A stretch of DNA of 36,576 bases from a virus: positions 1-36,576 of the IMG/VR virus record IMGVR_UViG_3300043409_001730. The stretch is one strand, 5' to 3'. Under the pieces are notes generated by a model that searched no databases, was not told the DNA's origin, and worked only from the letters and a program-made list of their open reading frames with translations. Positions 1,054-36,576 of the stretch are shown in pieces; positions within the stretch are counted from its first letter, which is position 1; each line of letters opens with the position of its first letter. Both the position numbers and the translations under genes were made by a program.

Positions 1054-1078
1054 AACGCGCCTTTTGGTGCGTTTTTTT
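1054..1078 (+). terminator. Rho-independent terminator before the C4 RNA
   Basis: AACGCGCC at 1054-1061 pairs with GGTGCGTT at 1066-1073 (eight pairs, one G-U) around a TTTT loop and is followed by T1074-T1078. It would attenuate transcription just upstream of the C4-like RNA, or separate the small early genes from the antirepressor genes. Confidence 0.7.
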
Positions 1079-1080
1079 AT

Positions 1081-1158
1081 GGTCAAGCGGGAACGGGATA
1101 CCTTAGGGTATGCCAGCTTCGCAAGTTCACTGGTCTGCTAACCTGTAACCGCTTGACC
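1081..1158 (+). ncRNA. c4: C4-type antisense RNA controlling the antirepressor
   Basis: A 78-base structured segment closed by a perfect 10-bp stem (GGTCAAGCGG at 1081-1090 with CCGCTTGACC at 1149-1158). Inside, ATACC 1098-1102 pairs with GGTAT 1107-1111, and CCAG 1113-1116 can pair with CTGG 1130-1133. Two single-stranded-prone segments are complementary to the leader of the next gene in the correct antiparallel order. CAAGTTC 1122-1128 matches GAACTTG 1194-1200 (7/7), covering the ribosome-binding region. CTGCTAACCTG 1135-1145 matches 1161-1171 (10/11). P1/P7 C4 RNA is also about 77 bases and blocks ant translation this way. What I see is the fold and complementarity; membership of the C4 family is a confident inference. 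Confidence 0.85.
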
Positions 1159-1160
1159 AC

Positions 1161-1200
1161 CAGTTTAGCAGCTCTTGGTCAAGTTTTTAAATGGAACTTG
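1161..1200 (+). promoter_or_regulatory. C4 target in the antirepressor leader
   Basis: This leader holds the b site (1161-1171) and the a site (1194-1200), complementary to C4 segments 1135-1145 and 1122-1128. The a site overlaps the GGAA that precedes the ATG at 1204. GGTCAAG at 1177-1183 can also pair with CTTGACC 1152-1158, competing with the C4 closing stem, so unprocessed and processed transcripts may fold differently. A further GTTTAGCAGC at 1022-1031 repeats the b site upstream of C4. Confidence 0.7.
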
Positions 1201-1203
1201 AAA

Positions 1204-1794
1204 ATGACCAAAGCCCTTATTGCGCCCTCATCGCGCCCTCTCACCTTAAATCACACAGTCAACCATGAGCCGCGCATTCTCGATATTGAGATTGCAGCCT
1301 CTTTAGGTTTGGCGCGCCCACGCGATATTCGTGATGTGATAATCAAAAACAAAGAAGAGCTTGAAAGCCTCGGTTCAATCGCGGTTACTAACCGCGCTTA
1401 CCGTGGACACCCAATAACTGAGTATTGGTTGAACGAAGCGCAAGCCCTTTTAATCTGCATGTTCTCGCGCACCCCTAAAGCCGCCGCTGTGCGCAAGCAG
1501 GTGATTGAGGTGTTTATGACTTATCGCGCTGGTCAATCACAATCACGCGCACTCATGGTTCAGCCCACCACAACATTTAAATGCCCCACAATGCCACGCA
1601 AACAAGCCGTGACATGGCAAGACTTAGAAGCCTTACTCTATTCAGCTTTTGGCAAAGACAAAGCCAACCCCGCTTTGCAAGCCCTCACACATGCGCTTGA
1701 AGAGGCTCTTTTGAAAAAAGAAATCACCCACGTGAGAGAGCGCAACAAAGCATCTGAAGAATTTTACGCAACACAACGCAAGCTTGCTGCTTAA
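1204..1794 (+). CDS. C4-controlled phage antirepressor (Rha/Ant-like)
   Basis: The open frame begins at 958, but its first 82 codons are the terminator and C4 RNA, so the ATG at 1204, preceded by GGAACTTG, is the likely start (196 residues). Residues 30-110 resemble the DNA-binding N-terminal domain of phage antirepressor and Rha-type proteins: a short helix-turn-helix (IAASLGLARPRDIRDVI) and a segment ending in ALLICMFSRTPKAAAVRKQV. The family is known to counter phage repressors or block host functions. C4 RNA should silence it in lysogens. The C-terminal 80 residues are charged and helical. Its stop overlaps the Shine-Dalgarno sequence of the second antirepressor, suggesting coupled synthesis. 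The exact family name is less certain than the role. Confidence 0.7.
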   Translation: MTKALIAPSSRPLTLNHTVNHEPRILDIEIAASLGLARPRDIRDVIIKNKEELESLGSIAVTNRAYRGHPITEYWLNEAQALLICMFSRTPKAAAVRKQVIEVFMTYRAGQSQSRALMVQPTTTFKCPTMPRKQAVTWQDLEALLYSAFGKDKANPALQALTHALEEALLKKEITHVRERNKASEEFYATQRKLAA

Positions 1795-27111: not shown

Positions 27112-27290
27112 TTTGGGAAATCTCAAAAAAAGTCAATAGAATCAATAGGCAGTAAATTGTTGCTTGGGAGCGTTAACCTGTTGATTTTATTGATAAATAC
27201 CTGTCCCTTTGGAATCGCCATTTTTTAAAAATATCATTTAAAATCAATTACTTAGTTACATAGTTTGGGAGACTAAATAATGGTTTGGGA
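27108..27290. other. Repeat-bearing region beside integrase, candidate attP
   Basis: The 161-base gap 27112-27272 contains no gene. ATAGTTTGGGA occurs at 27108-27118 and 27260-27270, with related GTTTGGGA at 27283-27290 and GCTTGGGA at 27162-27169, all on the same strand. An imperfect inverted repeat (12 of 13) pairs 27133-27145 with 27181-27193. Direct repeats and a dyad beside the integrase stop are the expected make-up of a tyrosine-integrase attachment site with arm sites. The core crossover sequence cannot be fixed without the host junctions. The dyad could also terminate the converging transcripts. Confidence 0.5.
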
Positions 27291-28319
27291 ATTTTTGTTT
27301 TTGTGGTGTTCTTCATAAACCTTAAAAGCACGTTCAATCATAAGCTCGCTATTAGCCGCTTTCGCATAATGTTGCGTTGTTTGGTTATCGCTATGCCCTA
27401 GTGCTTCGCGCACATGGTTAAAGTCAACTCCCATGTTAATTAGTCTAACTGCCATAACTTTTCGCAAGCCGTGAGCAACGCATCTATCGGGAAGCCCTGC
27501 CCTATCAATCATGGTTGAAATCCATTGACGACCGCCATTTTGTGTGAACGGCTTTCCGTGTTCTGTTAAAATAATCATCATTGAATCGCCGCGTAACGGC
27601 TCTATCGCTTCTCGTAATTGTGGCAAAATAGGAATCGCCATTTTCTTTCCTGTTTTTTGCTGTTTGAAGCGAAATTTATTGTTTTCAATATGCCCCCATG
27701 TGAGGGAGAGACAATCACTGATTCGCTGCCCTGTGAAAAGCAACAAAGCAAACAACGCCCGTTGTTTCGTGCCAATTGGATAGAATGATTCAAATTGAGC
27801 AACCTCTTGCTCGCTCCATGTGTGATGCTCTCCGCCTTTGTTCTTCTTGACATTCGAGGCGGGGTTGCGGTCTATCATGCCTAAAGCAATTGCAAAATTT
27901 AGCAGTGTTTCAAGGCGTTTTATGAGGTTGTTTGCTGCCTGTGGTCTGTCCTTCATCTTCGACATAATCGCAAGCGCGTGTTCATGTTTAAAATCTTTCA
28001 CTTGCAAAGCCCCTGCAACCTTCAAAAAATGGTCAAGGCTGGTTCGATAAGAACGTTGTGTTGAAAGCGCAAGGTTAGTGAAATTTGCAGAACTGAAATA
28101 TTTTATTGCAAGCTCGTTAAAGCTGCCCTGCCCTGCCCTAATAACTGGCTTTTGTGGCTTTGAGCTAGCTTTTGCCGCGTGATATTCATCTATAAACGCT
28201 TCGCTTCCATATGGGCTTTTAAGCCTTGTGCGCTTACCTGTTTTCGGGTCTCTATAATTATAATAGACGCTCCCCTTAACAGTATTACGTTCTATGTGTT
28301 TTAAGTCAATTAAGGTCAT
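27273..28319 (-). CDS. int: Tyrosine integrase
   Basis: This 348-residue site-specific recombinase inserts the phage into, and helps excise it from, the host chromosome. An N-terminal arm-binding part is followed by a SAM-like core-binding domain (about 65-155) and the catalytic domain. Active-site residues are visible: R199 (TGQRISD), K222 (QQKTGKK), H283 and R286 (HGLRK), H309 (LGHS) and the nucleophile Y318 (QHYAK). It starts in an ATGA overlap with the excisionase gene and is the last gene of the leftward operon. It ends beside the repeat-rich candidate attP. Confidence 0.95.
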   Translation of the reverse strand: MTLIDLKHIERNTVKGSVYYNYRDPKTGKRTRLKSPYGSEAFIDEYHAAKASSKPQKPVIRAGQGSFNELAIKYFSSANFTNLALSTQRSYRTSLDHFLKVAGALQVKDFKHEHALAIMSKMKDRPQAANNLIKRLETLLNFAIALGMIDRNPASNVKKNKGGEHHTWSEQEVAQFESFYPIGTKQRALFALLLFTGQRISDCLSLTWGHIENNKFRFKQQKTGKKMAIPILPQLREAIEPLRGDSMMIILTEHGKPFTQNGGRQWISTMIDRAGLPDRCVAHGLRKVMAVRLINMGVDFNHVREALGHSDNQTTQHYAKAANSELMIERAFKVYEEHHKNKNSQTII

Positions 28320-34851: not shown

Positions 34852-35445
34852 TCAAACCGCCACCTTCTCGACCTTCACCATGACAGCCACGCGCGAGACC
34901 CAAATAGGCTTCACGTTCTCAATGGGGTCTATGAGCTGGTTATAGCTTATGAGGCGCACAGTGCCTTCCTCATAACCCTTGCGAAGCTCTTTAATGTAAA
35001 TCTCATTCTCGCTGGTTTTTACCACGCAAAGCTCACCAATAAGATTTTGCCAGTTTTGGCTTTGGGGAAGGCATAGAATGAGGTCATCATCGCGAAGCAT
35101 GGGGCGCATCGAATCGCCCTTTACGCGAAAGGCTATGCTATCTTTCGGCATTCCAGACGGGCGCGGGGTCATGTCTTGGCTGTTGTCAATATCGATATGT
35201 TCAATGTTGACCGTGTCGCCTGCACCCACATAGCCAAGGATTGGCATTTCAAGGGTGTCTTGTGGGAAAAGCTCACTTTCACTTACTCCTAAAACTTCTG
35301 AAATTTTAGACGTCCATTTTGAAGACAGATTTCTCTCTCCTCTTTCTATCCTCAATATATAGGCGTGTGACATTCCTACGGCTTCCGCAAGTTGTTCTTG
35401 CGTTAAGCCTTTGATTTTTCTTAATTCTTTAATTCTGTTACTCAT
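34852..35445 (-). CDS. Phage repressor, LexA/CI type with autocleavage
   Basis: This 197-residue repressor has an XRE helix-turn-helix at residues 1-55 (RIKELRKIKGLTQEQLAEAV, ending with HAYILRIERGERN) and an S24 peptidase domain at about 65-195. The cleavage site is Ala75-Gly76 in GYVGAGD; the catalytic Ser112 is in GDSMRPML and Lys152 in YIKEL. All key residues are present, so RecA-stimulated self-cleavage after DNA damage should induce the prophage. It maintains lysogeny by binding the operators near 33150-33210 and 35481-35546. It faces the cro-like gene head to head, and two further genes follow it. Confidence 0.93.
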   Translation of the reverse strand: MSNRIKELRKIKGLTQEQLAEAVGMSHAYILRIERGERNLSSKWTSKISEVLGVSESELFPQDTLEMPILGYVGAGDTVNIEHIDIDNSQDMTPRPSGMPKDSIAFRVKGDSMRPMLRDDDLILCLPQSQNWQNLIGELCVVKTSENEIYIKELRKGYEEGTVRLISYNQLIDPIENVKPIWVSRVAVMVKVEKVAV

Positions 35446-35543: not shown

Positions 35544-35550
35544 TAGGCAT
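35527..35550. promoter_or_regulatory. Repressor operator d with flanking palindrome
   Basis: TGCCTATTTGTCATAATTAG at 35527-35546 repeats the operator pattern. It lies within a larger dyad whose ATGCCTA and TAGGCAT arms are separated by 11 bases. It overlaps the -10 box and the start codon of cro, so binding would shut off the promoter. Confidence 0.6.
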
Positions 35551-35755
35551 GACATTAAAAGAATTCCAAAACCTAAGAAAATTGAAACAAAGAGAGCTTG
35601 CTGACCTTTTAGGTTTTAAGCAATCAACTGTTTGTAAGCTTTTGAATGGGGATAGATATCCAAGCCCAAGAGCTCAAAGTGTAATTCTTGGGAAAACGGG
35701 TGGTTTAGTGACGCCGAATGATTTTTTAAGCCAATTTAAGGAAACGCACCAATGA
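35549..35755 (+). CDS. Cro-like helix-turn-helix regulator
   Basis: This 68-residue protein is one small HTH domain (FQNLRKLKQRELADLLGFKQ then STVCKLLNGDRYPS), of the size and placement of Cro: opposite the repressor, first gene of the rightward early operon. It probably competes for the same operators to switch to lytic growth. Its ATG coincides with the predicted transcription start, so its mRNA is probably leaderless. The stop overlaps the next start (ATGA). Confidence 0.8.
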   Translation: MTLKEFQNLRKLKQRELADLLGFKQSTVCKLLNGDRYPSPRAQSVILGKTGGLVTPNDFLSQFKETHQ

Positions 35756-36453: not shown

Positions 36454-36576
36454 TGCGGACTTGGGGTTACGGAGAGGATAATGAATAATATTTGGGATAT
36501 TATCAGAAATGGCAAACAGGCTATGTGTAGCGATTTATCACGCGCAAGGCCTAATGTTATAAAAGAAGCGCAAGAC
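36454..36576. repeat. Terminal duplication, right copy
   Basis: This is the second copy of bases 1-123 with one difference (G at 36477). Joining the two ends gives a circle of about 36,453 bases. Confidence 0.9.
36481..36576 (+). CDS. Partial second copy of the 28-270 gene, cut by the window end
   Basis: The first 32 codons of the coiled-coil early gene repeat here and run off the window end. The G at 36477 makes the upstream sequence GGAGAGGATA, slightly closer to a consensus ribosome-binding site than the copy at 18-27. It is not a separate gene. Confidence 0.85.
   Translation, partial: MNNIWDIIRNGKQAMCSDLSRARPNVIKEAQD

Follow-up and report, generated by a model that had tools for sequence, protein, structure and literature searches.

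In bacteriophages P1 and P7, the C4 antisense RNA (Rfam family RF01695) precedes an antirepressor gene, which in P1 belongs to the immI operon, c4-icd-ant. In the P1 record, sites upstream of c4 are annotated as 'putative a1' and 'putative b1', with a2/b2 downstream of it, and the upstream element, c4-a1b1, was listed by Weinberg et al. 2010 (PMC2864571). The corresponding Rfam family, RF03163 ('a1, b1 targets of C4 antisense RNA'), matches P1 and Gifsy-1 and overlaps isrK. In Gifsy-1, a promoter, a short terminated RNA (IsrK, RF01394) and STnc1160/orf45 stand ahead of the antirepressor gene anrP. The authors of a mutational study of this locus (PMC4825925), the text of which never mentions 'c4 RNA', invoked refolding of the long mRNA and likened the locus to seqA–CI–seqC of phage P4. 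As cited in that paper, the CI RNA of P4 pairs with seqA and seqC to cause termination. By the same description, P4 resembles the locus reported here in that a processed antisense RNA has a target on either side of it within the transcript from which it comes; however, CI is not a member of the C4 family, and what it controls is transcription termination in replication genes rather than antirepressor translation.

In our analysis, a C4 RNA (L231, 14132–14317; 69 bits) coincides with STnc1160/orf45 of Gifsy-1, and the a1/b1 target of this RNA coincides with IsrK. Specifically, G28 and G31 of IsrK map to a1, and C159 and C162 of 'orf45' map to the a' arm of C4. P1 a1/b1, the Rfam c4-a1b1 element and Salmonella IsrK/STnc1160 are thus united as one layout, in which the C4 arms are matched to both target sets. 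The present study suggests, with a probability that we put at about 0.88, that the 36,576-base virus record examined here, called the window below, carries a temperate-phage immunity cassette of the C4 type. The range of the P1-type antisense switch and its duplicated targets would thereby come to include a temperate phage of alphaproteobacterial type.

The phage and its tandem antirepressors

The window begins and ends with a 123-base direct repeat (1–123 and 36454–36576, one mismatch), which makes it probable that the record is a complete phage genome, circular or circularly permuted. The phage is temperate and close to complete: it encodes a tyrosine integrase (27273–28319, minus strand), a CI/LexA-type repressor with HTH and S24 domains (34852–35445, minus strand) and, divergent from the repressor, a Cro-like HTH gene at the start of the early operon (35549–35755). 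This gene and all window features described below lie on the plus strand. Because the terminal repeat joins the region past the Cro-like gene to position 1, the early rightward operon probably runs on through three open reading frames at 28–270, 267–731 and 728–958, each of which overlaps the start of the next. The first, a small gene, had no match in Pfam and PHROG searches; the second overlaps the stop of its predecessor by 4 nt; and the stop of the third overlaps an ATG at 958 (TAATG), from where the cassette region follows.

Behind the cassette lie two antirepressor genes, which, as the first-pass annotation of this DNA had claimed, belong to different families. The product of ant1 (1204–1794, 196 aa) is Bro-N-like, with a weak match to Bro-N/phrog_63 (Bro-N score 21.7 bits, under the Pfam cut-off of 25.6), and ant2 (1805–2560), which has its own ribosome-binding site (AAGGAG), encodes a protein with AntA/AntB and KilAC/ANT domains. 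The likely target of the antirepressor is the CI/LexA-type repressor. Homologs of ant1 also stand behind C4 at L002–L004, L094, L095, L107, L116 and L121. Elsewhere, among relatives of ant2 and ant1, a different RNA, sRNA-Xcc1 (RF02221), occupies the place that C4 holds at other loci (L007, 2868–2958; L128, 1362–1446).

Unlike P1, in which icd separates c4 from ant, the window has no icd-like gene, and its two antirepressors come from other families. The ant1 start lies 39 nt after C4, and reading by eye gave only a 25-codon frame at 1191–1268; this frame, considered as an equivalent of icd or orf45, has no ribosome-binding site discernible by eye.

The C4 RNA, its leader targets and related loci

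The first-pass annotation had proposed a C4 antisense RNA of 78 bases closed by a perfect 10-bp stem and had named the Rfam covariance model as the means of checking it. That model (RF01695, cmscan) matches over its full length at 1075–1164 and scores 59.8 bits, where the cut-off is 45 (E 2.8e-9 within the window). The 78-nt core at 1081–1158, the predicted mature RNA, folds as described, with a 10-bp closing stem (GGTCAAGCGG/CCGCTTGACC), a free energy of -35.2 kcal/mol and a z of -4.8 relative to shuffled sequences. C4 is co-oriented with the antirepressor operon and lies just upstream of it. At the level of sequence, this RNA is thus a confirmed addition to an already known family, and it resembles P1/P7 C4 in its fold, its two arms, the order a1/b1–c4–a2/b2, its strand and its place before an antirepressor. 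Protein coding in place of RNA was rejected as an explanation of the region, since indels inside isrK and C4 between L002 and L003 shift the peptide and keep the RNA. The few records scanned after a terminase-based search for relatives contained no C4, and a direct DNA search in phages returned short matches only, all inside antirepressor genes.

Both arms of the RNA find partners in the ant1 leader. Arm b' (CAAGTTC, 1122–1128) pairs at all seven positions with GAACTTG at 1194–1200, just before the ATG at 1204, and the target, b2 (1193–1200), covers the GGA upstream of this start. Arm a' (GGTCTGCTAACC, 1132–1143) pairs with a2 (GTTTAGCAGC, 1163–1172) through seven contiguous Watson–Crick pairs and flanking pairs. 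The earlier claim of seven of seven pairs over the ribosome-binding region thus stands, as does the order of the two segments, and their spacing is right as well; its figure of 10 of 11 for the upstream pairing is fair only if G–U pairs and one mismatch are allowed, but contiguous Watson–Crick pairing comes to seven. Measured from C4, a2 lies at +0 and b2 at +29, compared with 0–5 and 28–38 at other loci. With positions restricted to those seen at other C4 loci, the combined p is 0.0027 for these two pairings and 0.0033 for all four sites, including those upstream of C4. Taken singly against shuffles of the same site, the pairings in this AT-richer locus are modest (a2, p 0.012; the 7-bp b2, p 0.09), and evidence from the family therefore matters.

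To obtain such evidence, we assembled a set of 102 C4 loci with non-redundant arms from alphaproteobacterial, proteobacterial and further genomes and from viral relatives, and scored each C4 arm against its own flanks and against the flanks of all other loci. Own flanks exceeded permuted flanks at every site (z 8.3 for a2, 18.9 for b2, 21.8 for a1 and 12.9 for b1), whereas control stretches 110 bases further out gave z between -0.8 and 0.6. In 22 new loci, the z values were again 4–8, with controls at about 0. Chance complementarity of the arms is thereby ruled out at the level of the family, as is a composition-driven tendency of C4 arms to match anything nearby. These z values assume independent loci, an assumption that does not hold, and concerted changes in close relatives are the better argument. 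On a nearly identical backbone in L002, L003, L116 and L092, arm b' and its targets b1 and b2 vary together: CCTTGTG is matched by CACAAGG at both sites in L003, CCTTCTG by CAGAAGG in L116 and CCGTTTG by CAAACGG in L092. The model match, the two ordered pairings, the position before an antirepressor start and the more than 100 related loci all bear out the P1/P7 logic that the first-pass annotation had assigned to the region.

The leader may also fold on its own. A hairpin at 1151–1184, with arms at 1151–1159 and 1176–1184, would present a2 in its loop, and across loci the part of the leader that directly follows a2 is complementary to the 3' strand of the C4 closing stem (z 14.8, control 1.0), so that the closing stem would compete with this hairpin.

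Several C4 RNAs can occur in a row on one strand, with four within 1.4 kb at G1006:C9:1700–3092 and three about 0.7 kb apart at G442:C237:13851–15365. A Thalassospira-type phage record (G001) carries two C4 loci, L089 and L092, which lie on opposite strands and are separated by about 11 kb.

The upstream a1/b1 unit and its possible roles

Upstream of C4, the window has elements like those of Gifsy-1, in the same order. A sigma-70-like promoter, TTGACG-N17/18-CAATAT(T), at 964–993 would start a short RNA near 1000; the arrangement TTGAC-N17-TAxxxT was likewise read by eye in L002, L003 and L004. An isrK-like target unit (1001–1077) follows, and at its end stands an intrinsic terminator (1054–1078) formed by a hairpin at 1054–1073 and a T-run, as had been claimed. 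P1 differs in that no such terminator directly precedes its C4. The unit falls below both Rfam cut-offs, in contrast to that of Gifsy-1: the isrK model (RF01394) matches it weakly over its full length (21.1 bits against a cut-off of 50; E 0.005 in 121 nt), and the c4-a1b1 model (RF03163) does not list it at E up to 10 in the same 121 nt. The window further differs from Gifsy-1 in its bulged b1 and in lacking orf45.

The upstream site at 1022–1031 carries the same 10-mer as a2, GTTTAGCAGC, which occurs exactly twice in the 36.6 kb (expected 0.13); a 10-mer common to the upstream region and the leader has p 0.007. Its duplex with arm a' has -17.1 kcal/mol (p 0.0005 against the shuffled site), although an ungapped score over the whole upstream region gives p 0.10. 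A partial second site, b1 (GAATTTTGCG, 1040–1049), pairs with arm b' through one bulge at -8.2 kcal/mol (p 0.06); for both sites, the region-wide ungapped test gives p 0.14. The first-pass annotation had recognized the copy at 1022–1031 and described it as an extra b site that may act as a decoy. The copy exists, but in P1 naming it corresponds to site a, and it is not alone, given the b1 candidate behind it. From the P1 annotation and RF03163, it follows that it is the a1 of an already known target pair, and a lone decoy copy is ruled out, since P1, Gifsy-1 and many other loci carry an ordered a1/b1 pair. In addition, positions 999–1088 weakly match the Rhizobiales sRNA Atu_C8. As in the stretch before C4, the consensus of this sRNA closes with a terminator and then UUUUuaUgg, and Atu_C8 might be a further isrK-like target of C4.

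Several elements can be read directly from the DNA: the fold of C4, its pairings with a2 and b2, site a1, the terminator, the promoter-like site and, across the family, the matching of the arms to both target sets. To these our model adds, by inference, RNA processing, a block of translation, titration, termination and an action of the antirepressor on the S24 repressor. In the lysogen, the promoter at 964–993 would drive a short transcript, part of which would stop at the terminator to yield an isrK-like RNA of ~75 nt bearing a1/b1. The other part would read through, and the C4 RNA (about 1081–1158) would be cut out of it and would base-pair with the leader of any ant transcript at a2 and b2, covering the region just before the ATG at 1204. 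Translation of ant1 would thus be stopped, and that of ant2 would be lost as well through polarity. Bound at a1/b1, C4 would favor termination, whereas free a1/b1 RNA would soak up C4 and release ant. The upstream pair would therefore be a second C4 target that attenuates transcription and is able to titrate C4.

How these last two activities are weighted can be considered in light of the Gifsy-1 mutants (PMC4825925), which we reread as C4 arm and a1 mutants, a reinterpretation that departs from the refolding account of their authors. Changes at C159/C162 raise anrP from 4 to 484–926 units, and short IsrK loses its activation when its a1 is mutated. Together with the matching of both upstream sites to the C4 arms across loci, these effects would be expected if the isrK-like RNA were mainly a sponge, or target mimic, for C4 that turns ant on when the promoter is strongly active. 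The imperfect b1 of the window speaks against this, as do the refolding proposed for the long mRNA and the failure of STnc1160 co-expression to counter IsrK toxicity, a result at odds with simple titration; we consider a predominant sponge role plausible, at somewhat less than even odds. The earlier decoy proposal is partly supported, in that the IsrK mutants fit an anti-C4 activation in trans, but the cis mutants fit C4-dependent termination as well. Specifically, the a1 change G31A in cis raises basal anrP from 4 to 218 units, the terminator of the window lies directly behind a1/b1, and P4 CI, as cited in that study, terminates through pairing with seqA and seqC. The a1/b1 pair might accordingly act in cis as a C4-triggered terminator resembling seqA, with C4 on nascent a1/b1 RNA causing transcription to stop at 1054–1078 and titration being unimportant. 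A pure terminator would, however, leave unexplained why short IsrK in trans raises an anrP translation fusion about 100-fold and a transcription fusion only 8-fold, and the odds lean against this mode of action.

The weak b1 and b2 and the sub-threshold isrK and a1b1 matches could also be taken as signs of a degenerate cassette that has lost its regulation and is kept by chance. Given the perfect 10-bp stem, the two leader pairings at family positions and the intact antirepressors, we regard this as very unlikely.

The coupled frame through the cassette

In the window, the ATG at 958 opens a continuous frame of 278 aa (958–1794) that is in frame with ant1 and passes through the promoter, the isrK-like unit, C4 and the leader. 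The other two frames of this region are closed, and the chance of an open frame is 0.006 by shuffles. At the eight ant1-group loci tested, the ant phase is open and the other two are closed (8/0/0 by frame, against 1.2 expected for each); a coupled start was found at seven of them, with frame lengths of 246 to 273 nt. A coupled frame with promoter, isrK-like unit and C4 is also present at L002, L003, L107, L116, L121, L134 and L232 (738–1889); at L134, start and stop overlap in the same manner, but the downstream protein is a different one. P1 and Gifsy-1 differ from the window in this respect: the coupled frame is absent from both, being closed in P1, and the ant frame of Gifsy-1 is not open through C4. 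No earlier report of a coupled frame spanning such a cassette was found in the open-access literature.

Ribosomes arriving from the gene at 728–958 on long early transcripts would cross the terminator, C4 and the leader, so that early expression of ant1 would bypass C4. The cassette would then lie within an ant coding sequence that is translationally coupled, and the phage would make (N-extended) Ant1 in the early lytic phase. The TAATG overlap within a run of overlapping genes is consistent with this, as is the enrichment of the ant phase, which is seen in the ant1 group, among coupled starts open to ant at 94 loci (18/4/2 by frame) and in new loci (4/1/0). However, the loci are related rather than independent, and clustering reduces the counts to 13/4/2 at 75% identity and 7/3/1 at 68%. 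Moreover, the encoded peptide is not conserved, C4 and isrK sequences are stop-poor in every frame, and the arrangement is missing from P1 and Gifsy-1. For the window, we therefore regard the bypass as a possibility to be held with some doubt. Equally tentative, and rather unlikely, is the general form of the proposal, in which C4 cassettes often lie inside a continuous frame that is in phase with the antirepressor and coupled to the early gene before it, giving two modes of expression. Transcripts from the local promoter would be held off by C4, whereas on translated early transcripts folding of the terminator and of C4 would be suppressed, yielding an N-extended antirepressor immune to C4. 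If the coupled frame is functional, then it would explain how a phage lifts C4 repression in lytic growth. A similar arrangement is found in coliphage mEp460, where C4 lies inside the annotated rha CDS, that is, in a coupled frame joined in phase to a regulator; there, C4 is situated about 460 nt past the start of the frame, and the protein is of the Rha type.
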